From Candidatus Eisenbacteria bacterium (GTDB taxonomy: Bacteria > Eisenbacteria > RBG-16-71-46 > CAIMUX01 > JAHJDP01), in contig JAHJDP010000088.1 in NCBI GenBank assembly GCA_018831195.1, positions 1-46,200 on the forward strand: a stretch of 46,200 nucleotides of DNA, written 5' to 3'. Made by a program: the position numbers and the translations under genes. Under the pieces are notes generated by a model. It searched no databases. It worked only from the letters and a program-made list of their open reading frames with translations, and had not been told where the DNA came from. Of this stretch, positions 18,680-42,457 are shown one piece after another (position 1 is the first letter of the stretch; every line of letters begins with the position of its first letter).

Positions 18680-19205
18680 ATGCGAGATGGGAAATACGCC
18701 ATACTGTTGGACGGCGGTTTCGTAATCAAGAAATTCCAATCCCAGAGTGGAAAATTCCCAATTGCTGAAGATGTCGTAAAGTTTTGTTCCGGTATTCGGG
18801 AAAATCCGCGCCTGCGTGACCTTCAGCTGCTTAGAATCTATTTCTATCATGCCTTACCCTCAACTGAAACCCTTGTAAATCCAATAGATGGGAGATCTAT
18901 CAATTTTAGTACAACAACCCTCTACCGTGAATCACGGCGCTTGCTTGATACGCTTGAACTGGAAGATTCAGCCGGATTGGCTGAAACCGGATGTTAAGCA
19001 GAAGGGAGTTGATTTACGCATAGGGCTTGATATTGCAAGACTCTCCCTGCTGCACCTTGTCGATGTCATTGTTGTCGTAACCGGTGATAGCGATATGGTG
19101 CCCGCGTTCAAGTTTGCCAGACGAGAAGGCCTTAGAATCTACTTAGACCACATGAAACATGGGGTGCGCCGCGAGCTAAAGGCACACGCGGACTTAGTAC
19201 TCTAA
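18680..19205 (+). pseudogene. frameshifted NYN-domain (LabA/DUF88-type) nuclease
   Basis: Two overlapping frames together make one NYN protein. The first begins MRDGKYAILLDGGFVIKKFQ and continues through LRIYFYHALPSTETLV. The second, shifted by +1, reads QPDWLKPDVKQKGVDLRIGL, then IVVVTGDSDMVPAFKFARRE and GLRIYLDHM. The catalytic acids are intact: the first Asp in LLDGG and those in KGVDLR and TGDSD. The shift must fall near 18940-18965, where frame one gives LLDTLELEDSAGLAETGC and stops. The downstream frame continues for about 80 residues and stops at 19205. NYN proteins are Mg-dependent RNases. It is either a recent pseudogene, a sequencing error or a site of translational frameshifting. 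Confidence 0.75.
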
Positions 19206-19475: not shown

Positions 19476-19718
19476 TTAGATCAGATCCCTATAGATACTG
19501 TCCCAGTCGCTGCCGGATAGAGCCTCGCGGATCGTCGACGTGCGCATATACGACAAGCACTTGGCTTTCTGATCCGGCGTCGCGTCGGAGAACATGCGCA
19601 AAGCGGCACCGACGGCGACCCAGCGCTCCCTGCCGTTGAGTCCGCAGGAATGAGCCGCCTGCTCAAACTCCTCGACAAGATCTTCCGGAAGCCTGGCGGT
19701 GATAAGCGCCTTTCCCAT
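19476..19718 (-). CDS. orphan ribbon-helix-helix antitoxin-like protein
   Basis: This 80-residue protein opens GKALITARLPEDLVEEFEQA, a typical ribbon-helix-helix beta strand and helix. The second helix and turn follow (GLNGRERWVAVGAALRMFSD), then a C-terminal tail (YMRTSTIREALSGSDWDSIY) like the toxin-binding ends of CopG/ParD-type antitoxins. A perfect GGAGGT precedes the ATG by seven bases. No toxin gene is adjacent on the same strand (19206-19475 shows nothing), so it is either a lone repressor or the survivor of a decayed toxin-antitoxin pair. The promoter and inverted repeats just upstream suggest autoregulation. Confidence 0.7.
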   Translation of the reverse strand: MGKALITARLPEDLVEEFEQAAHSCGLNGRERWVAVGAALRMFSDATPDQKAKCLSYMRTSTIREALSGSDWDSIYRDLI

Positions 19719-19767
19719 AATTCGTACCTCCTATTAGTAAGCAGCCAATTTTCCCAACCACATGACA

Positions 19768-19944: not shown

Positions 19945-20922
19945 TTACTTTTTAAATAACCTGAGGTTTCTATCAGATCGATCTCGTTTAGCTCCGGATC
20001 GCCGCCCCCGCGGCCGCACGATTCCCGCTTTACGGGCTTTGGTATTCACGGTCGGCAGCGACACGTTGTATTTCTTCGCAATTTCACGGTAGGTCAGGTC
20101 GCCTTTCTTCAGATCTTCAATGATGCCTCTCTCCCGCTCAAGGCGAGCATCAGCACTCTTCGACCGGGAAACCTTCTTCGTGTAAGTCTTCCGCCTGACG
20201 GCGGTCCTTGCCGGTGACACAATCGATTTATCGGGTATCGTCTCCAACAGCTTCTCGATGGGGAGCGATTTCAAAATTCCTTCAACCAGGGATGGCGCAA
20301 TTGGCTTTCCGGCGAGATCCTCGGCTTCTTCAGTCACGAGTTTAATCAATTCTTGATTCGGCTTTGAGATCAATCCGGTTAAAGCCTCGATTATCTTTTC
20401 AGTAACTTTGGCATCACTACAAATCACTTTGGCATTGCTCAGATAGGAGCGATCCGCGACATGCGCCTTTGCCAGCAGGGATATGAGTTTAGGCGCCAGG
20501 GCAGCCGGGGCTTCTTCCATGAAGTCAAGAGCGATTTCCTTGATGCCCGGGGATCTATCATCATCATCATCATCATCGTCGAGCAGGTGAATTCGCCACT
20601 TGATTCCGGTGGTCGCAATCGACATCGGGACCTCGGCGGCTATAACCCGGCCGATGAATCCGGCAATATCCTGAATCGCATTGCCGCGCTGCGGCACGAC
20701 CTCAATCGGGATAAGATCGCCCCGCTCGCCACGCAGGGCGTAGGCGGCTTTCCGCCCTTCAAGCCTATAGCCTGGAACCAGCTCATCCACTTTAAACGGA
20801 TTCCAGCCGAGATGGTTCAAGAGCGGCAATACGAGGCCTTGTTTGATAGCCTCTACATCGTAGGTTTGAAAGATCGGATTTGATTGGATCTCTGCTATGA
20901 ATGCGGTCACGGCCTGCTGCAT
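19945..20922 (-). CDS. type I restriction R-like (HsdR_N) domain with degenerate active site, fused to helix-turn-helix
   Basis: This encodes 325 residues from the ATG at 20922, set by GGAGG five bases upstream; earlier in-frame starts lack one. Residues 1-95 follow the HsdR-type N-terminal nuclease pattern: VEAIKQGLVLPLLNHLGWNP, VDELVPGYRLEGRKAAYALR, DLIPIEVVPQ. In active members the motif is GR(x)xDYAL...IEVK. Here Asp is Ala and the catalytic Lys is Val, so cleavage is unlikely. An eight-residue Asp run follows near residue 122. The C-terminal ~70 residues carry RERGIIEDLKKGDLTYREIA and KKYNVSLPTVNTKARKAGIV, a helix-turn-helix, then a basic tail. It is the last gene of the defence array, 47 bases after the 172-residue gene. 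I suggest a DNA-binding accessory or regulator. Confidence 0.65.
   Translation of the reverse strand: MQQAVTAFIAEIQSNPIFQTYDVEAIKQGLVLPLLNHLGWNPFKVDELVPGYRLEGRKAAYALRGERGDLIPIEVVPQRGNAIQDIAGFIGRVIAAEVPMSIATTGIKWRIHLLDDDDDDDDRSPGIKEIALDFMEEAPAALAPKLISLLAKAHVADRSYLSNAKVICSDAKVTEKIIEALTGLISKPNQELIKLVTEEAEDLAGKPIAPSLVEGILKSLPIEKLLETIPDKSIVSPARTAVRRKTYTKKVSRSKSADARLERERGIIEDLKKGDLTYREIAKKYNVSLPTVNTKARKAGIVRPRGRRSGAKRDRSDRNLRLFKK
20557..20580. repeat. trinucleotide tract encoding eight Asp
   Basis: Seven ATC units and one GTC (plus strand) encode eight consecutive aspartates in the minus-strand HsdR_N/HTH protein. The tract lies between the inactive nuclease-like domain and the helical middle. Length changes would keep frame but alter the acidic stretch. 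Confidence 0.9.
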
Positions 20923-20969
20923 AGTGTCCTCCATGCTTGAATATCCCGAAAGGCTTCTTGTATTCGCTT

Positions 20970-21488
20970 CTAGTAAGCTCTCCCCTTCCCCCCACGCCCA
21001 CCTTTTCCCGAACCAGGGGATCCCCCCTGAAAGCAGGCTGGCAAGTATATGCCGCATGACGAGTGGTTGACAATCTCAACGACTCGCTCACGAATTTCCC
21101 GCACAGCGATCATCTGGTCCATCCGCAATCGCCCACGGGCTCGATTTGTCTTAGCCGCATTGATCATATCCGGCAACAAGTCAGTTAAGACATCATAATA
21201 TGTTTTCAGTCTCACTTTTTCGGAAAACATCGGTGGTTCAATGAGCAAGTCGAAGGAGTGGACTCCCTTGAGAGAGTAAATTTTAATGTACGTATTCCAC
21301 TGATGGGCGATATTAACGAGCTTTTTATCCAGTTCTTCCCTGGCCTGCTCTTGATCAGTCTGTTGTCCGAAAACTCGATTCACAAGATTATAATCTTCAA
21401 GCCAGACCTTTAGAATTTTGCTGGATCTATTTTTGATTATTGGAATAAGGTATTCCTGTACGTTTGTATCCTCTCTATTTTGACCCAT
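20970..21488 (-). CDS. unknown protein downstream of zorD
   Basis: This encodes 172 residues and I recognise no family. It predicts mainly helical (EYLIPIIKNRSSKILKVWLE, DQEQAREELDKKLVNIAHQW, DVLTDLLPDMINAAKTNRAR) and ends in a glycine-lysine-rich tail (GGSPGSGKGGRGGKGRAY) that could contact nucleic acid or be disordered. It starts 11 bases after zorD and ends 47 bases before the HsdR_N/HTH gene, so it should share the Zorya transcript. It is not part of the standard ZorABCD set, which makes it a candidate additional component. Confidence 0.55.
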   Translation of the reverse strand: MGQNREDTNVQEYLIPIIKNRSSKILKVWLEDYNLVNRVFGQQTDQEQAREELDKKLVNIAHQWNTYIKIYSLKGVHSFDLLIEPPMFSEKVRLKTYYDVLTDLLPDMINAAKTNRARGRLRMDQMIAVREIRERVVEIVNHSSCGIYLPACFQGGSPGSGKGGRGGKGRAY

Positions 21489-21499
21489 CTTGATACCAC

Positions 21500-24448
21500 T
21501 TATTCATTATCGACTGTTTCACTGTAAAGTTCCTCAAGATCACCGCTCGATGAGGCGGCCGGAACGAGACCAAGCACATGCCGGCTTATCTCCCGCTTAC
21601 GTTCCAGCAACGCATTCAGCTTGACGTCAAAACTGAAATCATCATACTCCGGATGCCTTGCGATGGGTATATGGGTGCTTACTTTTTTTTCTTGACCGAT
21701 CCGATAGATACGATCTGTGCATTGGTCTTCGACCGCGGGATTCCACCATCGCGATAAGTGAATCACATGATTGGCAGAAGTCAGGGTGAGTCCTACACCG
21801 CCCGCTCGGGGCGAAAGAATCATTACATCAAACCCCCTGCCCTCCTGAAATTTGGTAACCATCCCTTTCCTTCGGTCCCCACTAACCTGGCCGTTTATAA
21901 TCATGGGACGATGATCCATCTTGTAGCGACGCTGAATTAACCCCTGAAGGATTGGCTGAATAACCTTGAATTCTAGAAAGACAAGCACCCTCTCCTTCCT
22001 AGCATGGATCGCGTCTAGTATTTCAAAGGTTTTAATGAATCTAGCGGAGGAGGCGATGTACTCTTCGTCCGATAATTCTCCAATTGCCGGCTTGGGGTGA
22101 AGCGAGATGATTCTAAATTGATGAAGCGCCTGGAGCATCGCGCCCTTCTGTTTTCCGGCCAACTTGGCTGCTTTAACGACCTTTTTATATGTTTCCGCCT
22201 GAATCTGTGGCATTTCTTGCTCGTAATACCGTTCGGTCTTTTCCGGAAGTCCATCGAGCTCATCTGCTTTCATGCGGCGCAGCATAATTTTCGGAGATGT
22301 CTCCATCTCATTGAAATCATCTGTAATCTGTCTCTGCAAATCCTTCAGCAAATCTGTATCTATTGCCGGAGAGGAATCGTACTTGGCAACAAAGCTTTTC
22401 AAGTCCCGCAGAACGCCAGGCTGGCACGTATCGACAATCGACCAAATATCGGCAAGGCGGTTTTCAACGGGGGTGCCTGTCATTGTCAGCACAAAATCGG
22501 CATTGGACGCCACAGCCTTGCACTCTTCCGTTACAAGAGCATTCGGATTCTTTATCTTCTGCACCTCATCAAGGATCATTGCCGCCCATCGAATCCTACC
22601 GAAGCTATGAGAATAATCCCTGAGCGTCTCATACGTCGTCAAAACCCAAGAGGCATTTTCGAATTCGCGAACCCGAAGAACGGGGGCGCCCGTTTCGGCA
22701 TCCGTACGCCCGCTCGCGTCGGGATGCCGCAAGGCCCGCAATCGTTCACCATAAGCCCGCAGTGGCAATCCAAGCCCACCGCCCAGCAGATGAAAATCGT
22801 GTTCGTCGGCCCAGTTCTGAAGCAGCCCCGTCGGGGCGACAATGAGAAATGGTTTTGGCTTCATCTGCTCCTGCGTTTGTTCCCGCATCCACAATAAGAA
22901 AGCAAGGCACTGAAGCGTTTTTCCAAGCCCCATGTCATCAGCCAAGAGGGCCCCCGGACTCCCCTCCAGCCAGTGTTTTTGCATCCATCGCACCCCGGTT
23001 TCTTGATGCGGCTTGAGTGTGCTCCGGATTCCTTTGGGAATTGAGGCGGCACCATTTCGCGGGTTCCAATCAGCGTAGGAGAAGCAAAACTCGTTGAGGT
23101 TGTCTTTATCCTGCAGCAGCAAAACGACCTTCTCTTTGGTCGGCTTGTCTTCCAGTCTAGTTTTTTCTAACGTGGAACCCTGCAGCGGTTTTTCAATTGT
23201 CTCAATTGATTCAAGCGTCTCAGTCGTGGCCGGAATCATAATCTCCTTATGCTCAACTGTCGGCTGGCTGATGGCCATCGCATCCTGAATTCTCTTCTTG
23301 AGCTCCGGGATTTCTTCGGCCGTCAACAGCACCTCGACACCATTGATAAGCAATCCGAACTCTTCGGGCGGCATCCATGGCTCTGTCGCCTTCTTTAAAA
23401 AAGGCAAAACTTTGGGAACCCAAATACCGGCGGCGGCAACCCTCTCACCATAGTCACTGGGCTCAAAGAACAGTCCGGCGAGGCATTCCTCAGATAATTC
23501 ATCACCAAGTTGCTCGCGAAGAGCGGCATGGGGATTTGCGGCGAAGGCCCGACGCTCATTCTCTGGAGCCTCTTGCTTTTGCCTTACAACCTCCAAGGCC
23601 TTTCGAACAGGCTCATCGACAACAATATACATGCCGTTACCAAGTGCATATTGTTTCTTAGCATCACGAAACTTCCTAAAAGTTCTGGCAAGTTCCCGTT
23701 CAGAGGCAGGTGGTAACGATCGGGACGGTTCTTTGGGGGATTCGTCTTCTGTGGGATCTGCATAGTCCTCCACCGGTTTGAGCCCGGCGAGAAGATCTTC
23801 ACGAACGAGAATTGGATCGAAAGTGAATCTCCCGAGTTCATCAGATCGAAATTCCAAAGTGAAGGATGTTCCCAACGCCACCTGCATTCCCTTTAAGTAG
23901 TCGTCGACAATTGCATCATCAGGAAGCAGCTGTTTTACCCGAGACCACTTAAGGAATCTTTCATCGTTATTCTCTGTTGGTTCAGCATTGAATTTATCAA
24001 TGGATTCGACCAGAGAATAGATTGGATCAGGGATGATCCACTCGCGGCTGCCGGCGCGCAAAAACACCCCCTCTCGAATACTCCCGAGCAAAGGCCGGCT
24101 GTCTGAGGTCATGTAATCATAAGCGAGTTCAAAATCTTTGTCTGTCAAGAGCCCACGGCCTTCTAGAGAGAGTGTTAAGGGCGCCCACTCAGGAAGCATG
24201 AGTGAGTTGGTCTGCTGCCTATTCAACTGAGCTATGGCAGTGTACGGAATATGAATCAGACCGTCTGAGATCTCATCGGCCAGCTCATCTTCCAAGAGTG
24301 ACATTAGGATGGGGATCGTTTTGCGATCCTTAGCCATCATTTTTTCAGCCATCAATGGCCATTCTTGAGATGAAATGCTCTCCGCCGTCCCGGTCAACCT
24401 GTACCGAACTCCGTCCTCTGCCTTCAACCACTCAATACCGATAGCCAT
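21500..24448 (-). CDS. zorD: ZorD, SNF2-type helicase of Zorya type I
   Basis: This encodes 982 residues. The N-terminal half (1-450) has no motif I can name. The C-terminal half is a full SNF2 ATPase: LLADDMGLGKTLQCLAFLLW (Walker A, near 505), MILDEVQKIKNPNALVTEE (motif II reading DEVQ, near 626), MTGTPVENRLADIWSIVDT (motif III), then FLEFKVIQPILQGLI, SPRAGGVGLTLTSANHVIHL and RWWNPAVEDQCTDRIYRIGQ (motifs V and VI, near 910). Length and its position after an EH-signature gene match ZorD, which acts on DNA once the ZorAB membrane complex senses phage entry. AAGGAG precedes the ATG. The gene overlaps zorC by 17 bases, indicating coupled translation. Confidence 0.88.
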   Translation of the reverse strand: MAIGIEWLKAEDGVRYRLTGTAESISSQEWPLMAEKMMAKDRKTIPILMSLLEDELADEISDGLIHIPYTAIAQLNRQQTNSLMLPEWAPLTLSLEGRGLLTDKDFELAYDYMTSDSRPLLGSIREGVFLRAGSREWIIPDPIYSLVESIDKFNAEPTENNDERFLKWSRVKQLLPDDAIVDDYLKGMQVALGTSFTLEFRSDELGRFTFDPILVREDLLAGLKPVEDYADPTEDESPKEPSRSLPPASERELARTFRKFRDAKKQYALGNGMYIVVDEPVRKALEVVRQKQEAPENERRAFAANPHAALREQLGDELSEECLAGLFFEPSDYGERVAAAGIWVPKVLPFLKKATEPWMPPEEFGLLINGVEVLLTAEEIPELKKRIQDAMAISQPTVEHKEIMIPATTETLESIETIEKPLQGSTLEKTRLEDKPTKEKVVLLLQDKDNLNEFCFSYADWNPRNGAASIPKGIRSTLKPHQETGVRWMQKHWLEGSPGALLADDMGLGKTLQCLAFLLWMREQTQEQMKPKPFLIVAPTGLLQNWADEHDFHLLGGGLGLPLRAYGERLRALRHPDASGRTDAETGAPVLRVREFENASWVLTTYETLRDYSHSFGRIRWAAMILDEVQKIKNPNALVTEECKAVASNADFVLTMTGTPVENRLADIWSIVDTCQPGVLRDLKSFVAKYDSSPAIDTDLLKDLQRQITDDFNEMETSPKIMLRRMKADELDGLPEKTERYYEQEMPQIQAETYKKVVKAAKLAGKQKGAMLQALHQFRIISLHPKPAIGELSDEEYIASSARFIKTFEILDAIHARKERVLVFLEFKVIQPILQGLIQRRYKMDHRPMIINGQVSGDRRKGMVTKFQEGRGFDVMILSPRAGGVGLTLTSANHVIHLSRWWNPAVEDQCTDRIYRIGQEKKVSTHIPIARHPEYDDFSFDVKLNALLERKREISRHVLGLVPAASSSGDLEELYSETVDNE

Positions 24449-25853
24449 CTCTCTCTCCTTCGGGCATATATTCCGGGTAGCTTATGAGAGCACCGGTTTC
24501 ATTATAAATTTTATCTGATATTGTTTTCTGCCATTTCCCTGATTCGGATCCATGGTGAGTCACTTCGAAATCCCCACCGAGCCTTAGTCGTTGTGCATGA
24601 TAATACCCTTGATACAACTCAGGTTTATTAGAGTCGGTGTTTTTATAAATGCGGCATTTGCCAGAATGACTCCACTCCGTGATCGTGATCGAGCCAATTT
24701 TCATGAAAAGCACCGATTGATTGCCTTGGCTTCCACCCAACGTTGCAGATTGTTCATAGCTGCCCGTCTTGTCATATCTGGCCCGCGCAGAGGCATGGCT
24801 GCCCAAGGCGACCCAGGCATCTTTGACAAATCCATTTTTATAATAGGCATCCCAAAACACGTGACGATAACGCCACATATGCTGCTGGGCCGTTTCGTCC
24901 AAAAGGTTAAAGAATTGCTTCAGTGAGGCGCCAACAAGCCAGCGATAGAGGACGTTCTGGGCTTGCTTGCCGATACCCTGCCAGGCGCCCTTGGAGATTC
25001 GGGGATCTCCAACGGTATCCAAAAGAAAAGATTGAATTGCCTTCTTTAAATTTTCAGGTGGCGTGTCTTCGATAAATGGCTCCAGGAGGGCCTCGGCCAA
25101 CTCCCCCTTCGCTCCCTCGATACGAATTCTATCGCCCTCTCTGGCATATTTGAAGACACGCGTCAGACGGTTTTCTTCTACAGAGCCATTCTCCAATCCA
25201 TTTCTTAATCTCCCGAATATTTCCGAAAATGTAACCTTCGCAAATAACCCCCTTGCCAATTCGTTGACGAGACCGGCCTCCTCATAAATATCAAGTATTG
25301 GTCTATCGCTTTCATAGATGAGCTTGGCCATTCTTTCAGGCCCATTTTTGTCCAAGAGATGGAAATTGTCTTCGCGGAGCCGTGCTTTTCTAAGGCCGAC
25401 CAATTGACACTTCAAGAGATCCTTAACTCCAATTCTTATCGACTCGAAAGTCTGCCAGTCGGTTGGGTAATCGCGGAGAAATACATGCCAGAGAGAAATG
25501 ATCGGGCCGGACCGAGGTTTATTTCGAAGCGTTTGTAGAAGTGCCGAGACAATCTTTGGATTTTTCCCCAGTACCGTTTGTTTTTTCAGTTCATAAAAAA
25601 GGACCCAAGGAGCCTGACGAAGATATTGGGGCGCCAGACTATTCAAATTCCCATTGGATGCAAATTCACGAACGATCGCTTTGTATGTGACTTCGGGATC
25701 AAAGTTCTCCGGTTCAGCTGGAGCAACGTCTTCATAGAGCTTTGACAGCTTTGGCAGTACTTTAGTCATCAATTGGGGCTGGAAGGCTTTGCCCAACTGT
25801 CTGATTTTTTTGAAATTCCACTCAAGAAGATTTTGCTTTAACCCGTCGACCAT
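24432..25853 (-). CDS. zorC: ZorC, EH-signature protein of Zorya type I
   Basis: This encodes 473 residues from the ATG at 25853, with GGTGG eight bases upstream; a GTG four codons earlier would abut the zorB stop. It is mostly helical, then carries the EH_Signature domain: VLYRWLVGASLKQFFNLLDE, MWRYRHVFWDAYY, then SITITEWSHSGKCRIYKN with the named Glu and His, YQGYYHAQRLRLGG and VTHHGSESGKWQKTISDKIY near the C-terminus. ZorC is the cytosolic partner that works with ZorD in Zorya type I. Gene order (after zorA-zorB, overlapping zorD by 17 bases) and the EH signature make the assignment strong. Base composition is low (about 43% GC on sampled lines), unlike the methylase genes upstream. Confidence 0.88.
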   Translation of the reverse strand: MVDGLKQNLLEWNFKKIRQLGKAFQPQLMTKVLPKLSKLYEDVAPAEPENFDPEVTYKAIVREFASNGNLNSLAPQYLRQAPWVLFYELKKQTVLGKNPKIVSALLQTLRNKPRSGPIISLWHVFLRDYPTDWQTFESIRIGVKDLLKCQLVGLRKARLREDNFHLLDKNGPERMAKLIYESDRPILDIYEEAGLVNELARGLFAKVTFSEIFGRLRNGLENGSVEENRLTRVFKYAREGDRIRIEGAKGELAEALLEPFIEDTPPENLKKAIQSFLLDTVGDPRISKGAWQGIGKQAQNVLYRWLVGASLKQFFNLLDETAQQHMWRYRHVFWDAYYKNGFVKDAWVALGSHASARARYDKTGSYEQSATLGGSQGNQSVLFMKIGSITITEWSHSGKCRIYKNTDSNKPELYQGYYHAQRLRLGGDFEVTHHGSESGKWQKTISDKIYNETGALISYPEYMPEGERDGYRY

Positions 25854-25865
25854 TGGATAAACCAC

Positions 25866-26669
25866 CTACTGAATTTTTGATTTTTCGGCGAGACGGCGTT
25901 CCACCTCTTCTACAACCTCAGGAGAGGTTCGCGGAGGTGTCATGATAAACCTGAGATCAATTCGCCTATTTCCCGCCCGGCCTTCCGGAGTGAGATTTGT
26001 ACTCTGATCTCCTCCAACGGGTCTGCGATCTGCATACCCACTTACACTAAAGATAGGCTGTCCCCTGGCATTGCGCAGAGAGTCAAGCTCCGCTCTCTGC
26101 GCCATCATTTCCTTGTAAGCACTCATCGCCCGCTGCGTCGACAGATCCCAGTTATCCTTGTATGGGCAGGCGGGGCCCAGAGGAATTGGATCGGTATGTC
26201 CCTCGATAAAAATGGCCTCGACCTTCCCCTTAAATTTGTTTTCATTATCGGGCGGGGGAAATTCCGGCGGTGGTGCCCCCGTATAGCGCGGTAACACGGT
26301 CGCCAATACATGCGACAATTTTGACATCGCATTTTGGCCGGATGGGCTTACCTCGGCACTGCCCGAAGCGAATAGGATCTTTTCAGGGATTCGCAAAATA
26401 CCATGCTCCGGGTCTACCACAACATGGATGCCCTCACGTTTCATCTGCTCCGCAACATCTTCAAGAAGTTCCCGCCTTACTTGAAAGGCATTGGTCATGT
26501 CCGTTACAACACGCTTTTGCTCTCGAGTGACCCGGTTCAATTCATAGGCAAAGACCATAACAATGAGGATAAAAACAAAAAGGAGGCCGGCCATCAGATC
26601 GCTCACAGACATACTTTGCCCGCCCCAGGGCTTTCCTTCTGCTGATCTCTGTAACGGCAACCTTCTCAC
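25866..26669 (-). CDS. zorB: ZorB, MotB/OmpA-like stator subunit of Zorya
   Basis: This encodes 267 residues from a GTG start preceded by GGGGGGAG. A single membrane helix (SVSDLMAGLLFVFILIVMVF, about 21-40) carries Asp24 directly at its entrance, the position of the ion-carrying aspartate in MotB and ZorB. The C-terminal half is an OmpA-type peptidoglycan-binding domain: KILFASGSAEVSPSGQNAMS, AIFIEGHTDPIPLG, NWDLSTQRAMSAYKEMMAQR, VSGYADRRPVGG and GNRRIDLRFIM. With ZorA it forms a membrane motor-like complex anchored in the cell wall that senses phage entry. It lies 65 bases after zorA. Confidence 0.92.
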   Translation of the reverse strand: MRRLPLQRSAEGKPWGGQSMSVSDLMAGLLFVFILIVMVFAYELNRVTREQKRVVTDMTNAFQVRRELLEDVAEQMKREGIHVVVDPEHGILRIPEKILFASGSAEVSPSGQNAMSKLSHVLATVLPRYTGAPPPEFPPPDNENKFKGKVEAIFIEGHTDPIPLGPACPYKDNWDLSTQRAMSAYKEMMAQRAELDSLRNARGQPIFSVSGYADRRPVGGDQSTNLTPEGRAGNRRIDLRFIMTPPRTSPEVVEEVERRLAEKSKIQ

Positions 26670-26734
26670 TTGCTCTAACTCCCCCCTGGAATCTTCGTTA
26701 TAGTCACATACTAATATTCAACCAAAATCCTCTT

Positions 26735-28555: not shown

Positions 28556-28593
28556 TTCACCTCCACATCAATTCACATTGACAAACAACCAAA

Positions 28594-32643: not shown

Positions 32644-32701
32644 CGAATGTGGTTCTTTCTCCGTGCTGTTCCGTGACGCCTCTTATACAATGCCCCGCCC
32701 G

Positions 32702-35581
32702 CTACTCCGCGGGAAGGAAAAGATAGAGGCCCAAAACATCCGCCGGAAGCTCCGGGCGCACCTGATACGTCACTTTCTCCTTCGCCCTGTGCGCGCGGAC
32801 GCGGCGGTGGGCCTCGAGGAGTTGATCGCCCCGGCTGTCCGCCTGCTTATCCAGCGCGGGGCGGATTTTGTTAAAGTCCTTGATCGCCTTGTCCAGCAAG
32901 GCGACCTGCTCTGCCTTCCCGATATTGGCGGACGGCTTGGCCGCCATCAGCCGCGCCACGGCGTCATCCGCCAGCCAGCGCGGTCCGCTTTTCGTCTGGA
33001 TAAAGGCCAGCGGATGCGCTTCCTCGGCCAGCAGTTCCTTGACGCCTCCGTTCCGGCGGATCAGATGGTAGCGGAAGCGAACCAGAAGGATTGTCGTCGG
33101 ATCCTCGACGTCGCGGGTGCGGATGACGCCGCAGCGGCGCGCCTTCCCCCCGCCTTGCGATTCCAGCGCCGAACTGACGACATAATCGGCCATCCCCTCG
33201 ACAATGGGATGGGTGCGGCTGAGATAGATTTCGCCGGGCTGTTTGGGCAGTTTGAAACGGGCTTCGAATGTGGAGAGGCCCTCGCACGCCTCCCGCATGG
33301 GGACCGGCGCCTCCTCGAGATGGAAACGCAGGTGGCTGTTCATCGGCTCGACGTGGCCGCCGTACATCATGATCGCGTCGCGGAGGAAGCGCTCGACATC
33401 GATGCCCGACCCGACGGCCGCGCGCGCCGCCTCCAGCTCGCGGGCGACGTCGTCGACCTTGATCCCCTCCTGGGCGAACATCGTGCGGGATCGCTTCTCG
33501 CGGGCGGTGACATCGTCCCACTCCTTATGCAGCTGGTTTTTGTTATCGCGCAGGAATTCGAAACTCATCTGATCGATCTTCGAGTGGTCCCGCATCAGCA
33601 GGCCCTCGAAGATCGCCTCCACGACGGCGTTGGTGTCGACCGGAACGGGCACGGAGATGCCGAGGGAGCTGCGGATCGTTTGATGCTTGCGCAGCAGCAC
33701 ATCGAGGACCATCCCGTCGATGCCGTTGTCGATGCCGTAATAGGTGAGGGCGCGCACCGTCGGGCTGGCCTGGCCGTATCGATCGACCCGCCCCTCCCGC
33801 TGCTCATGGCGCGTCGGATTCCAGCTCAGGTCGTAGTGCATGACGGCGTTGAAATGCTCCTGCAGGTTGATCCCCTCGCTGAGGCAGTCGGTGCAGACGA
33901 GGACGCGGGGCGCCCCTTGCGCCAATTGTTGAACACGGATCTCCCGTTCGGCGTGCGGGATGTCGCCCGTGACGGCGGCGACATTTACATTGTTGCCGAG
34001 AAGGGCGCGCATCTGCTCCGCCACATATTCGGCGGTGGGGATAAAGCGGCAGAAGATGATCGGGTTGTAACCCTCGCGGATGAGCGTCCGGACGCACTTG
34101 ACAGCGCCCTGAAGTTTTAGGTCCTGCTCGCCTTGAAGGGCATGCGCCTCCTCCGCCATCTCCCGGAGGCGCCGGCGCAGCGATGATCCGGCCTGTTTTG
34201 AGTTTGCGGCGCCATAGGGGCGTTTTGCTGCATCCGCGACGGCGGGGAGGTCCGCCTCTTCGGCATCCGTCTCATCTGATCCCGGATCGCTGCCGGGGAT
34301 GACATCGAGGGCGTCCACGGCATCCGAATCTTCGAGATCCAGGATCTGGCGGCGGCCGATCTCATCCGCCTCTTCCGGCGTCTGCGTGTCAGCCGAGGAG
34401 CTGCGCGCCTGCAGCGTGGCCGCGGCCGAGGCGGGGCTGCTGGCCAGCGAACGCAGGAGGGCCAGAGCCGACCACCACCGCACCCGCTGGCGGTGGCGAC
34501 CCCCGGTTTCATCGCTCACCGTCTCACGGGCATAGTCGATCACGCGGTTGAACAATTTGCGGTAAGCGGGACTCAATTTGTAATGATCTTCCGCATCCTG
34601 CCGCTGGGGAAAGACGGTTTCATCCGACATGTAGGTGCGAATATCGGCCCGGCGGCGTTGTACAAAATGGCCCGCCACCCGGCGGCGGAGGGAAGCCTGC
34701 GCGGGGCCGGCCAGATCCTCGGGAAGCCCGGAGAACTCGGGATCGAGAAACCCCAAGAGCGAGCGGAAGGCCGCTTCTTTGCCGCTGTGGGGCGTGGCGG
34801 TGACCAAAATGAGATGGCGCTGCGGATCGGCGGCGAGGGATTTGACCACGGAGTAGCGCTGATGCCGCGACCGGCTTCGGATTTCATCGTAGGAACAGGA
34901 ATGCGCCTCATCAACGATGACGAGATCGGGGCAGGTTCGTATGAAATCATCGCGGCGGCGGTCGGATTTGATATAGTCGATCGACACAATGACGCGGGGG
35001 TAGCGCTCGAAGAGCGATTCCCCAAGGCGGCATTGCCGCTCGAGCCGTCGTACCGTTCCCGCCATCACCAGCTCGGTGCTGAGATGGAATTTTTCCGCCA
35101 GCTCCCTTTGCCACTGCTCGGCGAGATGCGGCGGGCAGAGAACGGCCAGGCGCGAGCCCTCGCCGCGGTCGATGAGTTCGCGCGCGATAAGAGAGGCCTC
35201 CACCGTTTTGCCGATGCCGACATCATCGCCGATGAGGAGGCGCACCGGATCCTGCTTCAGGGCCATGAGCAGGGGCACCAGCTGATAGGGCCGCGGCTCC
35301 ACAGCGATTCGGCCGAAGCAGCGAAAGGGACCGGCGCTCCAGCGGATGCCGAGCCGCAGCGCGTCGCGCAGCAGCCTGCCCGAGCGGTAATCGCCGGCGT
35401 CATGGGGATCCGGCAGATCGAAGCTCGCCGGCTCGACCGGCTCGAGCGAGGTGAGGATTCCGGCGATTTCGTCGTCGACGCCGCCGAGGGGGCGCAGCAG
35501 CAGCAGCTCCTCATTCGACCCCGGCAGCACAACCCACTCGCGCCCCCTGGCTTTGACCAGGGCGCCTATCGTGAATTCCAT
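32702..35581 (-). CDS. drmD: SNF2-like helicase, DrmD-like
   Basis: This encodes 959 residues. An N-terminal small domain (MEFTIGALVKARGREWVVLP) leads into a SNF2/RapA-type ATPase: LLIGDDVGIGKTVEASLIAR (Walker A, near 120), VIVDEAHSCSYDEIRSRSRH (DEAH, near 220), LVTATPHSGKEAAFRSLLGF, then the second RecA lobe VLVCTDCLSEGINLQEHFNA and HYDLSWNPTRHEQREGRVDR. An acidic low-complexity insert (about 395-475) separates the lobes. The C-terminal third has no motif I can name. This is the layout of the DISARM helicase DrmD, which sits beside the adenine methylase in class 1 systems, as here. It starts three bases after the giant helicase gene. GC is about 65-68%, producing several long antisense open frames that are not genes. 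Confidence 0.8.
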   Translation of the reverse strand: MEFTIGALVKARGREWVVLPGSNEELLLLRPLGGVDDEIAGILTSLEPVEPASFDLPDPHDAGDYRSGRLLRDALRLGIRWSAGPFRCFGRIAVEPRPYQLVPLLMALKQDPVRLLIGDDVGIGKTVEASLIARELIDRGEGSRLAVLCPPHLAEQWQRELAEKFHLSTELVMAGTVRRLERQCRLGESLFERYPRVIVSIDYIKSDRRRDDFIRTCPDLVIVDEAHSCSYDEIRSRSRHQRYSVVKSLAADPQRHLILVTATPHSGKEAAFRSLLGFLDPEFSGLPEDLAGPAQASLRRRVAGHFVQRRRADIRTYMSDETVFPQRQDAEDHYKLSPAYRKLFNRVIDYARETVSDETGGRHRQRVRWWSALALLRSLASSPASAAATLQARSSSADTQTPEEADEIGRRQILDLEDSDAVDALDVIPGSDPGSDETDAEEADLPAVADAAKRPYGAANSKQAGSSLRRRLREMAEEAHALQGEQDLKLQGAVKCVRTLIREGYNPIIFCRFIPTAEYVAEQMRALLGNNVNVAAVTGDIPHAEREIRVQQLAQGAPRVLVCTDCLSEGINLQEHFNAVMHYDLSWNPTRHEQREGRVDRYGQASPTVRALTYYGIDNGIDGMVLDVLLRKHQTIRSSLGISVPVPVDTNAVVEAIFEGLLMRDHSKIDQMSFEFLRDNKNQLHKEWDDVTAREKRSRTMFAQEGIKVDDVARELEAARAAVGSGIDVERFLRDAIMMYGGHVEPMNSHLRFHLEEAPVPMREACEGLSTFEARFKLPKQPGEIYLSRTHPIVEGMADYVVSSALESQGGGKARRCGVIRTRDVEDPTTILLVRFRYHLIRRNGGVKELLAEEAHPLAFIQTKSGPRWLADDAVARLMAAKPSANIGKAEQVALLDKAIKDFNKIRPALDKQADSRGDQLLEAHRRVRAHRAKEKVTYQVRPELPADVLGLYLFLPAE

Positions 35582-35584
35582 AGT

Positions 35585-38500
35585 CTAAACCGTCTCCGCA
35601 TTTTCATTCTGTTTGTCTTGCTGTTTTTTCGGCAGAAAGACCAGCACGGTCTTTCTCGTCCGCCGCCCGAGATATTTTCCGTCGGGTGCGTAGTCCGGCG
35701 GATAAAAAATGTCCAGCCCCCTGCCAAGAATAATCCGCCAGTCCTCCGTTTCGATATACCGGTCGTGCAACAAGGGATCGAATGTATAACTAAATTGAAC
35801 GCCCTCATCATTCCAGCGAATCTTCAGGCGCTCCAGGCGCTCCCGCGATTCGGCTTCTCCGTTGACGCCGTAGCGCTCATTCAAGGCGTACATTGTTTGG
35901 AGTTCTATCGCGCATCCGGCGGGAAGACCGGCGTCCTCGGCGAATTCGATGAGATTTTGGAATTGGTATTCGGCGCGAATGTAGGGATCGACAATGCGGA
36001 TCCATGCAACGCCCTTGAGATATGTCTGGAAAAGATCCCCATAGCCGACATCCCGCCGGCCGTCCTCTATCTCGACATACTCATGCGAAGGGAGCTCCGG
36101 CGCCTGCAAGCCTTCCAGCGTTACCGGAACGGCCCGCGCTATGAGGCTTCGGATGGACCGGACGGCCGTATCGGCGGCGGCGGATTGCGTGTTATAGACA
36201 ATCTCCTGCTTTTCAAGCCTAGCCGTCAAAGAGGGAAGCTGATCAAGGGTCGCGAGAGTAAGAACATCTTCGCCGCCGTGGCCGAGAACGATCCGCCACT
36301 GGTCTTGTCCGGCACGGGCGCCGGCTTCGGGAAGGTGATAGACGCGGACACCCGCTTCCAGGAGGTCCATGAGCGCTTTAATCTCGAGGAAGTTTTCCCC
36401 GGTGATATGTCTCAGGTCCGGAACGGTCTCGATGATCAATTCCACAGACGGCCCGCCGCGCCTGCCGGCGTAATCACACAGGAAACGGACCCAGGGTTCA
36501 CCCCGCGGCGTCTCCGAATTGTCGATCGATGCGCACATTCCCAGGATGGCGCCGCCGCCCGCCTGGGCGCGATGCTGGAGCCACGACGAGACCCGGCCGC
36601 CGCAATACCGGCGGCTTCCATCGCCGTATTTTCGCAACCGCGCCTGCATCTGAGGGCTGTTCAGATCCACGAGATGATCCAAATAGGGAATAATCATCTG
36701 CTTGTCGAGCAGTTTGTGCTCCATCTGATTTGTATAACTGCGCAGGCAGCGGTAGCAGGAATGCTCGCAGCGGCAGCCGTCCATGAGATCCCGCGCGACT
36801 TTCATGATCGCGGTCATATGTTCGGCGGCGGAACGGACATAGCCGGCGCCCCCCGGCACCCGGTCATAAAGCACAAGATCATAACATTTTTGATCGCCGT
36901 CCATCCGCCGGCTGAGGAAGCCCCCAATCTCACCGGGTTCGGCGCCGACGACCGACACCGCCGCCTCAATGCACGCCGCTTTGAGACTCGCATGAAACTT
37001 TTTTACCAAGAGCTCGGCCTCGGTGTCCGCCGGCTCCCCGGTCCCCGGTTCCCGCGCCGAACCGGATCCCGACAAGGAACCGTCGATACCCTCAAAGCGC
37101 AGGACCAGCACATCCGTTTCGAACTTATAGGCAAGATGATAGCGCCTGCCGCTTCCTCCACATATCTTCCGCCGGTCATTGATCCGCTTATGTTTGTCGA
37201 AGGATTCCTTGTTTGTCGGGCTGTGCCAATAACCGCATTCGATACATAGGTGGAAGCCCCGGCCGGCCTCTTCCAGCAGGCCGGAATTGACAATCATCAG
37301 TTCGCCGCGGCGCCGGTAGTCGTACGAAAATCCCATCTGCCGGGTGGTATCCCCATCGCCATGATCGAGCAGATAGGTATGGGTCAGATAGAAAGCCCGG
37401 TGCCGGTACTCTTCGTCGGCCCGGATGGCTTCCGCCCGTTCGGCTGTAAATGAATAGCACTCCAAAATCGGTTTGTCGTATTCCAATTCTCTGCCGCAAT
37501 GGGGGCAAACAGAATCGCTTTCCTCAAATGAGACAAAATCGCACATTGAACAGGCTTTATAGGTTTGATCCAGATTCGGTGTTGAAGATCTGAAAAAATC
37601 CAAACCGATCACTTGGTATTTGCGTCCGTCCATATAAACAGTGTTGCCCGGCGCATACTCTTGAAGAGCGATTTCCATGCCCCTGAGAATGGGTTGTTTG
37701 GCTTCATCTTTCGCAATGAGGCGCGCCGCGTCGGCCGGAAAGGCATAGGACGGCAGAAAACCCTGAGCCGAGAGGTAAGAGAGGCAATACTGGGAATCGC
37801 ACTGGGAGATGAGATCATGCAGGATCATCTCTTTCTGCGTGAGTTTTTTGGCCTCACTCGCTTTCCTGCCGAGCATTTTGAGCTTTTCATTGTTGATAAG
37901 GATGGCTTCATTCAATAAGCGCTGTCTTTCCACGAGCCAGGGTTGAAAGGCACTCCACAGTTGTTCCCTGAAAGAGCCCAGAATGCGCCCGACCTCTTCC
38001 GCGCCGAGCCAGGCCAAGCGTTCCGGCGCTCCCTCTTTATCTTTCCTGAAGGCCGTCATCACGGCACCGAGAATCTGCTCTTTCCGCCGATCGATTTCCT
38101 CATGCAAATGGTCCAGGCCGAGCTCCTTTTGCCCTTCAATCTGAAGCTCCGATAACCGGCCCGGCATCTCAAAATCGAGCTTTTCGAGTATCAGGGAACG
38201 GATCTGACGGCGGATGATCCTCTCGTTGTCAATGGTGAAGGAGGGCGGCTGGATCTCGCCGGATATCATCTCGACGGGACGGTCATAAAAATAGGTGTCA
38301 TGGGCGCGGGCCAGGACAAAGGCATTGATGAGGGCGATGCGGTCGCGCCGCCCCGCGCGGCCGCTCCGCTGCGCGTAGTTGGCCGGTCCCGGGGGGATAT
38401 TCCGCAGGAAGACGCCGGGGAGGTCACCGATATCAACGCCCATCTCCATGGTGGGCGTGCACACGAGCACATCGGTTTCACCGGATTTGAATCTCCGTTC

Positions 38501-41500
38501 AACCTGGGCGCGCCGGGTGCTCGAGAGATTCGCGGAATGTTCCTCCGCGATCATGCGGTAAGGCTCTCTGTACTTATAGGTCTGGATGTAATAATTCTCT
38601 TCCGGCTGCGGCTCGTAGGGCTGCAAGCTTCCCGCACACCGCCAGCGGGGGCAGACATTCCTAATGTTATGGGTGGTCACCGAACGGCAGCGGTCGCATT
38701 GGTAGGTCTTATCCGGGATCGTCAGCATGAGGCGCCGGTGATTGACCATCTGAACTTCTTGAGAGGCCTTGTCGTTGCCGATGCGCACCGGCACGATAAA
38801 TTCGCGCCGGACCAGAAATTCGATGATCGCGGCCAGGATCTCCCGGGCTTGGGGCGGTTCAAAAATCCTCCCTATCAGATCCAGGAGAAAGGTCGTCCCT
38901 GTGGTGGCGGGATAATAGCCATAAACACGGTATGGCTTTCTGTCGGTGCTCCGCCGCTCAGGGAGAAATCCCACGGGCAGGGTGGACCGCCCGAAGGGAT
39001 GGCGGTGGTCCTGCATCGGCTTGGCCAGCATGGGATGCGACAGGGCCCGTTTCCAGCGCATGCCGTCCAGCACGGCCGCCAGCAATTGATAAAGGTCCGC
39101 CGGGTTGAGGCCGGCCGCCTTTTGAAGCTCCAGCGCTTCCTGCGCCAGGGTCTCAAGATCCTGCTCTTTATCAAAATATCTGACACCAAGAAGACCCAGC
39201 CCTTCCAGGCTCATTCTTCTGGAACCGGTTCCGGCAATTTCTGCGAGCAGGTTTTGCTGAATGTCCTCGTATTCCGCCGAAATCTCATCGGGATTTTCAG
39301 GCCGGCGCACCTCTATCGCTTTTCGGCCGCTTTCATCCAGAATTTCCTTGGGACTGTAAATCTGGTGCTCCATCCGGTTTTCGAACAGCATCCTCTGGAG
39401 GCGTTCGATCCCCACCGGCTTGAGGCTCGATTTTCGCTCGCGTTCGAGAACCTGATAGATCAGTTGGCGGCCGATAAACTGGGAATGCTTGTGGTTCAGA
39501 TACGCTGATTGAAAGGCCGTGTCCTGTCTGTTGTCGCAAAAGATCAACATTCTTCGCTGATCCGGCGTCAGATTCTGAAAGACCCCTTCAACGAGAATAT
39601 TGATACTCACCATTGTCGCCGACCGGAGTGGGGTCACAATCTCCCGGCCTCCGGGAGACAATCCCTCACAAGCGGGGCACTTGTAAATTTCACCCAAATA
39701 CGTCTTGGGTTGCTCGAGCCGGTGTTTCCGCTCCAAATCGGCGCCGGCTGAAGAATTCCGGCAGGAGGCGGCATCGCCGAAATGCAGCCGTCCACAGGTT
39801 ATACAATACTTCGCGGCCGCTTCCTGCGTGTGGACCTCGGCGGAATCCGCATCGGTATCTTCGTCTCCGGTCTCCCGCATATCATTGAGGTTGTATGTTA
39901 AATGTACCGGCGTTCGCGCTCCTCGGGCTTCATCGGTCAATTGAATATCCGAAGGCAGGAACTCGTGCTTCTTGTGCTTGGTCGTTTTTTTGAGAACAAA
40001 TCCCTGGAGGCCCTCATCCGACCGCAGATCACTGGAATAGGCTCTGAAATAATCCTGGCCGCAATTGCGGCAAACCTCGAGAGGAAGCGCACGGGATCCG
40101 CATTGCCGGCATTCATCGACAACCTCGGAATCAAGGAACCCACATTCCGGATTTGTGCAGCGGTAAAGACCCTGAAGGCCTCTCCAAAAGATATGCACCT
40201 TGGGCCGTATCATCGGACTGCCGGAACGCTGGGCCTTGGCGCCCAGCAAAAGATAGGCTTCGACTTCCCGGCTCGGAAAATCATCGGCCGCCGGCGTATA
40301 AAGTTGCCGGCCGAATTGTTGGCTGAGATGTTCGGTCACGCTCTCGAGGGAGTTGGGTTCGCTCAGTTTTTCCTCGATGGCGCGAAAGACCACATTGCGG
40401 GACAATAGAGCCCCAAGGAATTCCGCCGTCCTGTCGAAATTCGGATTCAGCTGAACATGGGCCAGCGCGATCTTCTTCGCCCACTCGATGCGGTCATCCG
40501 GCGCAATATATTTCCGGCAAAAAGCTTCGACGGTTTCGAAATCCGACAGTGCATGCAGCCCATGCAGATCGTCGAGCGAAATTTCAGACGATCCCGGCAT
40601 GTAGGGTTCGGTTTGCGGGGGAAGATCTTCATATTGTTCAACGGTGACATGCTCAGGCAAAAACGTCTCGCCGAACAGTTCCTTCGCAAAGTCAGCGACC
40701 GGCTGCGTCGTCTCTCCCTTCACCGTTGCGCTCGTGCCGATGCAGATCAATTCCCCGTCAAGGCGTCCGACATGCTCCTTGAGCCTCCGCATAAGGCAAG
40801 CGACCTCGATGCCCCGCGCGCCGCTGTACGTATGGATTTCATCCAGAACTACAAATTTGAGATTCTCATCAAAAAGAATCCGATCCATTTTTCGCAGAAG
40901 CAGGTACTCCAGCATCGAATAATTCGTCATCAGAATATTGGGAAGAGAATGGGGATTCCGAATCTCACGCCGGTACCATAGGGCTTCTTTGCACAAGCCA
41001 TCCGGCCGCAATTCCTTCTGGCTGTTCAGGGCGCTCGCTTCATCTTCCGGAGTGTCTCCGGTATATCGCGCGAAGGTCACCCCTGTTCCGGACAAATAAT
41101 GCGTGAACCGTTCATGTTGATCATTTGCGAGCGCATTCATCGGGTACAGGATGAGCGCCTTGATCCCGGGTCCTGGATGCTGGAGGCAGTAATTCAATAT
41201 TGGAATAAAGAAAGCCTCCGTTTTTCCTGAGCCGGTTCCGCTCGAGATAATCGTATTGTGACTCTTTAGGATTTGCTCTATCGCCTTCTGTTGATGGCGA
41301 AACAATTTCCAGGACCCAAAGGCCACCCGGCTGGATGCGCCCTGGGCTTCATCAGCCCGCAAAAGAGCAGGATGCAATCCGAGCGCCTCCCTCTGCTCAG
41401 CCAGGTTTTTCGATTCAACCAGATAGGGCCTTTGCAGAGAAAGATAGGGTCCCCGCCATAACAATTCCTCCTGGTCGAGCAACGAATGAATTTGCTTTCT

Positions 41501-41590
41501 AAGTTCTGCGTCAGCCACCGGAAAGGTCGTTTTGATATAGGACTTATACTCGGATTTCATCCGCTCAACGACGGTTATCGGCTGGGTCAT
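35585..41590 (-). CDS. giant DEAD/DEAH helicase with DUF1998 and MIT_C-like C-terminus (DrmAB- or DruE-like)
   Basis: This encodes 2001 residues. The first RecA lobe has SGTGSGKTEAFFIPILNY (near 118) and VVLDEIHTYSGARGIEVACL (near 248). A cysteine cluster follows at about 475-515 (CTNPECGF, CRQCG, CRNCG) and another near 595. Helicase-C motifs span about 690-1090 (LIFCDNRQDTAFQSAYL, VLVCTPTMEMGVDIGDLPGV, YAQRSGRAGRRDR). DUF1998 occupies about 1390-1640, with CSMCDF..CPHCGRE, VLYDRVPGGAGYVRSAAEH and CRCEHSCYRCLRSYTNQMEH. The last ~150 residues (IRIVDPYIRAEYQFQNLIEF, LLHDRYIETEDWRIILGRGL) resemble the phospholipase-D-like MIT_C domain. DISARM normally splits helicase (DrmA) and DUF1998 (DrmB); here they are one chain, as in DruE. 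It starts one base after the PLD stop codon. Confidence 0.85.
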   Translation of the reverse strand: MTQPITVVERMKSEYKSYIKTTFPVADAELRKQIHSLLDQEELLWRGPYLSLQRPYLVESKNLAEQREALGLHPALLRADEAQGASSRVAFGSWKLFRHQQKAIEQILKSHNTIISSGTGSGKTEAFFIPILNYCLQHPGPGIKALILYPMNALANDQHERFTHYLSGTGVTFARYTGDTPEDEASALNSQKELRPDGLCKEALWYRREIRNPHSLPNILMTNYSMLEYLLLRKMDRILFDENLKFVVLDEIHTYSGARGIEVACLMRRLKEHVGRLDGELICIGTSATVKGETTQPVADFAKELFGETFLPEHVTVEQYEDLPPQTEPYMPGSSEISLDDLHGLHALSDFETVEAFCRKYIAPDDRIEWAKKIALAHVQLNPNFDRTAEFLGALLSRNVVFRAIEEKLSEPNSLESVTEHLSQQFGRQLYTPAADDFPSREVEAYLLLGAKAQRSGSPMIRPKVHIFWRGLQGLYRCTNPECGFLDSEVVDECRQCGSRALPLEVCRNCGQDYFRAYSSDLRSDEGLQGFVLKKTTKHKKHEFLPSDIQLTDEARGARTPVHLTYNLNDMRETGDEDTDADSAEVHTQEAAAKYCITCGRLHFGDAASCRNSSAGADLERKHRLEQPKTYLGEIYKCPACEGLSPGGREIVTPLRSATMVSINILVEGVFQNLTPDQRRMLIFCDNRQDTAFQSAYLNHKHSQFIGRQLIYQVLERERKSSLKPVGIERLQRMLFENRMEHQIYSPKEILDESGRKAIEVRRPENPDEISAEYEDIQQNLLAEIAGTGSRRMSLEGLGLLGVRYFDKEQDLETLAQEALELQKAAGLNPADLYQLLAAVLDGMRWKRALSHPMLAKPMQDHRHPFGRSTLPVGFLPERRSTDRKPYRVYGYYPATTGTTFLLDLIGRIFEPPQAREILAAIIEFLVRREFIVPVRIGNDKASQEVQMVNHRRLMLTIPDKTYQCDRCRSVTTHNIRNVCPRWRCAGSLQPYEPQPEENYYIQTYKYREPYRMIAEEHSANLSSTRRAQVERRFKSGETDVLVCTPTMEMGVDIGDLPGVFLRNIPPGPANYAQRSGRAGRRDRIALINAFVLARAHDTYFYDRPVEMISGEIQPPSFTIDNERIIRRQIRSLILEKLDFEMPGRLSELQIEGQKELGLDHLHEEIDRRKEQILGAVMTAFRKDKEGAPERLAWLGAEEVGRILGSFREQLWSAFQPWLVERQRLLNEAILINNEKLKMLGRKASEAKKLTQKEMILHDLISQCDSQYCLSYLSAQGFLPSYAFPADAARLIAKDEAKQPILRGMEIALQEYAPGNTVYMDGRKYQVIGLDFFRSSTPNLDQTYKACSMCDFVSFEESDSVCPHCGRELEYDKPILECYSFTAERAEAIRADEEYRHRAFYLTHTYLLDHGDGDTTRQMGFSYDYRRRGELMIVNSGLLEEAGRGFHLCIECGYWHSPTNKESFDKHKRINDRRKICGGSGRRYHLAYKFETDVLVLRFEGIDGSLSGSGSAREPGTGEPADTEAELLVKKFHASLKAACIEAAVSVVGAEPGEIGGFLSRRMDGDQKCYDLVLYDRVPGGAGYVRSAAEHMTAIMKVARDLMDGCRCEHSCYRCLRSYTNQMEHKLLDKQMIIPYLDHLVDLNSPQMQARLRKYGDGSRRYCGGRVSSWLQHRAQAGGGAILGMCASIDNSETPRGEPWVRFLCDYAGRRGGPSVELIIETVPDLRHITGENFLEIKALMDLLEAGVRVYHLPEAGARAGQDQWRIVLGHGGEDVLTLATLDQLPSLTARLEKQEIVYNTQSAAADTAVRSIRSLIARAVPVTLEGLQAPELPSHEYVEIEDGRRDVGYGDLFQTYLKGVAWIRIVDPYIRAEYQFQNLIEFAEDAGLPAGCAIELQTMYALNERYGVNGEAESRERLERLKIRWNDEGVQFSYTFDPLLHDRYIETEDWRIILGRGLDIFYPPDYAPDGKYLGRRTRKTVLVFLPKKQQDKQNENAETV

Positions 41591-41591
41591 C

Positions 41592-42275
41592 TCATCTTCC
41601 TCGGTCTTGGTTGCCGCTGTCCCGGTGTGCCTCTGTCCCGGTGTGCTGCTCTACCGCACTCGGCCCAAACAGCACACCGTTGCAATCGGGCGCCCTCCCA
41701 CAAATCCACATAGAGGAGTTATCAAAATATCTCATCATGCCGCCGCATACCGGACAATAGACGGGCGGTTCATCGGCCATGGGGGCATCCGTCTCATCCA
41801 TGACATGGGGATCGATCGGAAGCGGATAAATTCCACGCAACTTCAGATCGCGGATGATTTCCCCGGCGAGTTCCGGAGATTGAATCCGAAGCATTGATTC
41901 GTGACTCTCACTTTGCGAAAAGATATTCAGGCTTCCGTGCCAGAGAATGGTTCCATCAACCAGTGCGATTTTCTCGTGCATCTTTGGACGTTCACCATAG
42001 GAAATTCCCAAATTCTGAAAGACACCTTTTACTCTGACGTGTTCATCCCTCATATGACCCATTTGCTCAGCCGCCGGTTTGGTATAGATAGAAACCTCAA
42101 CCTTACGTCTGATGAGGTCGCTGAGAATCGTGTAGTAGCTTCCGGCTCTCTTCGTCGTAAGGAACGGGGAAAATATGATGACGAATTTCAGGGCGTCAAG
42201 AAGATCCTGGCGGAATCGGGTGTGGAATTCACACTCTCTGACATGCTCAATGACGGTTTTGTCGGCCTGACCCAT
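41592..42275 (-). CDS. phospholipase-D-like protein with C-terminal zinc ribbon (DrmC-like)
   Basis: This 227-residue protein has one HKD motif, MHEKIALVDGTILWHGSLNI (about residues 96-115), preceded by a helix-strand unit (FRQDLLDALKFVIIFSPFLT). A single motif implies a dimer. Residues ~168-195 (YCPVCGGMMRYFDN..MWICGRAPDC) form a four-cysteine ribbon like those at topoisomerase C-termini, probably for DNA. DrmC, the PLD protein of DISARM, has this size, but the zinc ribbon could also point to a general PLD nuclease. It is the first gene of the array. An in-frame TAG six bases upstream fixes the ATG as the earliest start, and GGAG lies ten bases before it. Confidence 0.8.
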   Translation of the reverse strand: MGQADKTVIEHVRECEFHTRFRQDLLDALKFVIIFSPFLTTKRAGSYYTILSDLIRRKVEVSIYTKPAAEQMGHMRDEHVRVKGVFQNLGISYGERPKMHEKIALVDGTILWHGSLNIFSQSESHESMLRIQSPELAGEIIRDLKLRGIYPLPIDPHVMDETDAPMADEPPVYCPVCGGMMRYFDNSSMWICGRAPDCNGVLFGPSAVEQHTGTEAHRDSGNQDRGR

Positions 42276-42457
42276 GCGCTATCCACTCCATCGAGTTTAC
42301 AGGTGCTCATGTCGATGGCTCACTATCGATGTGCTAGATGATAATGCTTTCTGAAGTCATGAAATACAAGACCGAACCTTCTATGAGGTCTGGAGTTACG
42401 CAAGGATATAAGGATATACTGAACGCCGCACGCCCAGTGACCTGAGAGGGAGTTCAA
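42276..42457. promoter_or_regulatory. divergent control region between the defence array and its regulator
   Basis: This 182-base gap must hold the promoter of the ten-gene array and that of the regulator. An 8-bp tandem repeat, AAGGATAT twice, lies at 42402-42417 and runs into TATACT, a possible -10 for the regulator. I found no clean -24/-12 site in either orientation. GG...GC with ten bases between occurs only where it overlaps the PLD ribosome site. Confidence 0.5.

Follow-up and report, generated by a model that had tools for sequence, protein, structure and literature searches.

A mosaic gene array joining an ARMADA-type module to a type I Zorya operon behind a divergent RtcR-like gene

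Described relatives of the array

ARMADA Type I loci carry, in this order, a YprA helicase, a BrxHII-like SNF2 helicase and a PglX-like methylase (Bell et al. 2025, PMC12458937). In Escherichia coli, ARMADA II protects directly rather than through abortive infection, and its protection depends on each of its four genes (PMC12458937). In DISARM, the DUF1998 part is carried by a separate gene (PMC12458937). Arrays uniting Zorya II, Druantia III and ARMADA II are known in E. coli, and the Zorya-Druantia-ARMADA examples given in the text of the same paper are integrated islands (PMC12458937); in this species, Zorya II and Druantia III synergise via shared DNA intermediates, with coupling between DruE and ZorE (PMC13192584). 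A conjugative E. coli plasmid, NZ_CP026578.2 (L129, L137), also unites Zorya II and ARMADA II with a Druantia III-type pair. ZorAB forms a peptidoglycan-binding, ion-driven motor complex (PMC11890865). Finally, RtcR-associated defence superoperons have been described for CoCoNuTs (PMC11090510), and a link of McrBC to ARMADA-type loci has been reported (PMC11090510; PMC12458937).

Here, we describe a ten-gene array in a window of 46,200 bases, the entire contig (C88) of a 5.2-Mb metagenome-assembled genome (MAG, 99% complete). Its upstream half resembles ARMADA Type I in gene set and order, in an SNF2 protein of the ARMADA-I clade and in carrying defence genes on its 3′ side; it differs in its YprA helicase, which comes from a different lineage and ends in a PLD-like region instead of the Vsr nuclease, in a PLD gene in front and in Zorya I behind. 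The first-pass annotation had called this half DISARM-like, and a DrmD-like SNF2 protein, a DrmMI-like adenine methylase and a PLD protein are indeed shared with DISARM class 1. We replace that label with ARMADA-type, because the DrmA/DrmB split is absent and its YprA protein is a member of the ARMADA/Druantia branch. The helicase and MZB/DUF1998 regions form one chain of 2001 aa, not separate drmA and drmB products; the SNF2 protein reaches 318 bits on NF038317, against a cut-off of 610, and sits within ARMADA-I; and the methylase is DrmMI-like, yet its relatives occur in ARMADA loci. Druantia III was rejected as well, the YprA protein scoring 503 bits on PDLC00037 versus 2180 for E. coli DruE III, and no array gene matches DruH.

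The downstream half contains zorA-zorB-zorC-zorD in the order of Zorya type I, as first annotated, with type I models matching all four; it differs from that system in lying behind an ARMADA-type module and in being followed by two genes without a family assignment. Two further traits of Zorya type I are a 5:2 ion-driven ZorAB complex and phage protection; at the level of sequence, the ZorA protein described here matches solved ZorA chains. The E. coli Zorya II-Druantia III-ARMADA II array is a precedent for the association, in that ARMADA and a YprA helicase with a PLD-like C-terminus lie beside Zorya (PMC12458937; PMC13192584). There, however, a divergent Zorya of type II accompanies Druantia III with its DruH; in the window Zorya is of type I and co-directional, and the array, unlike that of E. 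coli, has neither DruH nor ArmD. As in CoCoNuT superoperons, an RtcR-like CARF-AAA+-HTH gene heads a long defence array (PMC11090510); yet McrBC/CoCoNuT genes are absent from the window, and RtcR is divergent here whereas CoCoNuT superoperons are almost always unidirectional (PMC11090510).

The locus is best explained as three pieces: PLD plus YprA; the SNF2 helicase and methylase of ARMADA Type I; and Zorya I with two trailing genes. That these form a mosaic anti-phage superoperon behind the divergent RtcR-like gene, working as proposed below, we consider reasonably probable. From the earlier interpretation, the co-directional joining of Zorya I to a helicase/methylase module is kept, while the DISARM assignment and the single conserved system are given up; the ten-gene array it described stands, but the divergent regulator, the three-block composition and the E. 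coli precedent had been omitted. Each component is familiar by itself, but we found no published description of the joined unit and no second example of its exact order in the loci and genomes examined, in keeping with its first being noted as undescribed.

Genes of the array

The coordinates first annotated hold for the ten ORFs, all of them on the minus strand and separated by tight junctions (gaps measured on the sequence). The array begins with a gene for a PLD-family nuclease of 227 aa (41592..42275; Pfam PLDc_2, E=5e-10), in which HxKxxxxD is intact (HKD at residue 100). One base separates it from the gene of a 2001-aa YprA/DruE-type SF2 helicase (35585..41590) with DEAD, Helicase_C, MZB (DUF1998) and MIT_C domains; the best PADLOC models are DruE (E=4e-170), DrmA being matched at merely 2e-15. 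The C-terminal MIT_C domain (residues 1849-1966) is PLD-like and its predicted structure is of low confidence; it has no catalytic HxK motif, which we counted against reading the array as a superoperon. Orthologues of this helicase at 56-60% occur in three fragmented MAGs of the phylum that are 86-89% complete (G006, G009 and G010), and in the latter two a homologue of the PLD protein (42-46%) is encoded directly upstream.

Three bases beyond the YprA gene lies that of an SNF2/BrxHII-like helicase of the ArmA type (959 aa, 32702..35581), which matches DrmD/"DpdE"-type models (E=8e-251) and scores 833 bits on PADLOC PDLC02853. This model, labelled DpdE, scores the SNF2 proteins of ARMADA-I loci at 833-959 bits and probably describes the ARMADA-I SNF2 helicase. 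After a further 58 bases comes a PglX/DrmMI-like adenine methyltransferase of the ArmB type (1349 aa, 28594..32643; Eco57I/N6_Mtase, DrmMI E=1e-78). A search of PDB sequences gave no match for it. Its motif I (DPACGSG) and NPPW are both intact; in ARMADA II, mutation of NPPW abolished protection (PMC12458937).

The Zorya genes follow after 38 bases. ZorA (606 aa, 26735..28555) is MotA-like with a long cytoplasmic tail, and matches ZorA1 (E=1e-60), NF033914 antiphage_ZorA_1 (220 bits, cut-off 190) and solved ZorA chains. After a gap of 65 bases, zorB (25866..26669, GTG start) encodes a MotB-like protein of 267 aa with an OmpA peptidoglycan domain (ZorB1, E=1e-80). It abuts zorC (gap 0; 24432..25865, GTG start), whose product is an EH-signature protein of 477 aa (ZorC1, E=3e-115; PF15611, 153.8 bits against a cut-off of 27.5) and which overlaps zorD by 17 bases. 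ZorD (982 aa, 21500..24448) carries an SNF2 helicase domain and reaches 1012 bits on ZorD1 (E ~0). Eleven bases past zorD, a gene for a 172-aa protein (20970..21488) has no family match, nor did any of the loci compared contain a homologue. For the last gene, listed from 21057, the likeliest start is an internal ATG at 20922, preceded by a GGAGG Shine-Dalgarno; the corrected product has 325 aa (19945..20922) and a gap of 47 bases, whereas the listed start would overlap the neighbouring gene by 88. It has a C-terminal HTH and a low-confidence alpha/beta N-terminal part, with pLDDT >90 in the HTH only. Pfam lent no support to the former HsdR_N call, its one match being a sub-threshold Sigma70_r4 HTH.

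Past the array's end, we observed by eye a small ribbon-helix-helix-like ORF (19485-19722, minus strand) and, in translation only, an NYN/LabA-like frame at 18629-19205 split over 18629-18997 and 18888-19205, which suggests a frameshifted or decayed gene. Left of the array, at 17180-17938, a HicA-like ORF recognised by eye and, behind it, a HicB-family protein with a Pfam match make up a toxin-antitoxin pair.

Distribution, mosaic composition and the methylase-zorA junction

Scanning genome contigs with the methylase recovered 79 related loci. Of these, 52 have enough upstream flank, and 47 of the 52 show the gene order YprA-SNF2-methylase; this trio occurs in Actinomycetota, Chloroflexota, Planctomycetota, Acidobacteriota, Bacillota, Cloacimonadota, Methanolobus and others. 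Other defence genes are frequent on its 3′ side: McrB/McrC-type genes in 10-12 of 46 loci, UvrD/GajB-like genes in 7, and GmrSD in one (L018). The nearest relative of the methylase (64%, in G006, a genome of the same taxonomic order) is followed by a TIR-domain protein (L014:3080-4372), not by Zorya. The window's own genome holds a second, divergent array of ARMADA-II-like order (G000 contig C76; L015:6642-17985, L111:3092-9025), encoding SNF2 (1102 aa), adenine methylase (1763 aa), LmuA/ThsA-like (892 aa) and YprA (1977 aa) proteins.

None of the 79 ARMADA-I loci matched ZorA, ZorB or ZorC, and no Zorya operon lies alongside them; the sole match to the ZorD query (146 bits, L085) stands in a locus with no other Zorya genes. 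The EH signature of ZorC was matched in 0 of 50 ARMADA-I genomes, against 5 of 5 positive controls. Conversely, ARMADA genes were found in none of 22 Zorya loci, 20 from Pseudomonadota and two from the phylum of a Desulfobacterales genome, with upstream sequence of variable length; all such neighbour counts are limited by contig edges, which hide adjacent genes. Among 47 genomes of the phylum, ZorC occurs in that of the window only, and scans of viral contigs with the methylase, ZorC and YprA queries gave no relatives. The first-pass annotation had taken the two halves for one conserved system and had named, as evidence to the contrary, homologous loci with the halves apart; since they are separate in every other locus examined, we do not retain that claim. 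The same separation, the different composition of the halves and the lack of ZorC in ARMADA-I genomes weigh against the idea of a new, fully integrated system whose methylase would mark self DNA for both the ARMADA helicases and ZorD. Its appeal lies in the single array, in the shared DNA-processing enzymes and in the way DruE and ZorE of E. coli are coupled by DNA intermediates that they share (PMC13192584), but we regard it as very unlikely, and an obligate single machine built from the two halves as unlikely too. The array is probably a one-off superoperon.

Two independent signals, the SNF2/YprA phylogeny and steps in GC3, show that the array is a mosaic. In trees whose ARMADA-I reference set was defined by locus content, the SNF2 protein falls deep within the ARMADA-I clade (support 100/98), nearest to proteins of Planctomycetota, Acidobacteriota and Bacillota at 63% identity. 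The ARMADA-I YprA proteins, in turn, form a 100% clade that excludes the window's YprA, and the AU test rejects placing it with them (p=7.5e-5); it groups with helicases from loci of the order SNF2-methylase-YprA. GC3 is 0.57-0.65 in PLD and YprA, 0.80 in SNF2 and methylase and 0.49-0.54 from zorA to zorD, with rather little change within any one gene; the mean over seven other genes of the window is 0.58. Phylogeny and composition agree at the YprA/SNF2 boundary, while the evidence for the boundary between methylase and zorA comes from composition and distribution. The events that assembled the pieces, and their timing, we infer.

Because the window is a whole MAG contig, the join depends on a single assembled contig. 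Sharp GC3 steps on one contig would suit an assembly artefact, bins being prone to chimeras; yet each boundary coincides exactly with a junction of intact ORFs that have proper ribosome-binding sites, the PLD-YprA order recurs in G009 and G010, and G006 contains both the 64% methylase and a ~58% YprA. We consider an artefactual join highly improbable.

The methylase-zorA junction does measure 38 bases with no terminator-like site within, as first claimed, and zorA has a strong Shine-Dalgarno of its own ahead of it (GTGGAGGTGAAATG). The region contains no more promoter-like sites than chance would give (8 observed versus 6.7±2.9 expected); as such counts are near chance, the argument from promoters and terminators was dropped and the short gap alone is informative here. 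This gap leaves little space for a promoter or terminator, which bears on whether an ARMADA-type module and Zorya I are mere neighbours in a defence island, side by side under their own promoters and with no functional link. Such neighbours would account for the absence of the join from the ARMADA-I loci, Zorya loci and phylum genomes surveyed and for a composition step located exactly between methylase and zorA, but they fit poorly with ten co-directional genes and with the Zorya-Druantia-ARMADA association and Zorya-Druantia synergy reported in other systems (PMC12458937; PMC13192584). On balance, we find unlinked neighbours possible but somewhat unlikely; the two halves are plausibly co-expressed.

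The RtcR-like regulator and a proposed mode of action

Directly upstream of the array, in divergent orientation, is a gene for an RtcR-like regulator of 514 aa (42458..44002, plus strand; PADLOC RtcR_PspF2 CARF_AAA_HTH, E=1e-130). It combines the parts of an RtcR-type sigma54 activator: a CARF domain of Csm6 type, a sigma54 AAA+ domain with its GAFTGA loop intact (residue 279) and a Fis-type HTH (Pfam Sigma54_activat, RtcR). Two further Zorya I loci (L163:9577-18630 and L173:2039-12617) have a divergent homologue nearby, with 34-36% identity; in the former, RtcR heads a co-directional run in which OLD-like ATPase and UvrD-like helicase genes come between and Zorya is last. No RtcR was found near other ARMADA-I loci, whose upstream flank is usually ~2 kb. 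A search of 42276-42457 for sigma54 -24/-12 elements gave none that was convincing, the best partial match being 8/12, on the minus strand; the pattern occurs at chance frequency, and that no clear promoter was recognised at the array head was also counted against the superoperon. Control by RtcR is therefore suggested by position and family.

If the array is a superoperon as favoured here, RtcR would sense a ligand derived from infection or damage, probably RNA ends or oligonucleotides bound at its CARF domain, and with sigma54 would switch on the entire leftward array. Methylase, SNF2, YprA and PLD nuclease would then deal with invading DNA in the manner of ARMADA, recognising and processing it, and the distal Zorya genes would add a second layer in which envelope perturbation is sensed by ZorAB. 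In Zorya I, ZorC and ZorD act on DNA in the cytoplasm, and they would presumably do so here. Layered and possibly synergistic action of this kind appears to be the best-supported reading. A more specific form of it, in which an RtcR-switched operon co-transcribes an ARMADA core with swapped YprA/PLD and Zorya I, these act synergistically on shared DNA intermediates, and the trio serves as a chassis with a 3′ effector slot (McrBC, UvrD-type, TIR or Zorya), strikes us as doubtful.

Should the array be co-expressed, the Zorya-Druantia-ARMADA association would extend from E. coli islands with Zorya II to Zorya I and to an uncultured phylum. Co-expression would also suggest that the ARMADA trio tolerates helicase exchange and accepts different defence modules behind it. 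In that event, the locus would also make it possible to test how an RtcR/CARF switch controls an array that pairs DNA targeting with membrane sensing.
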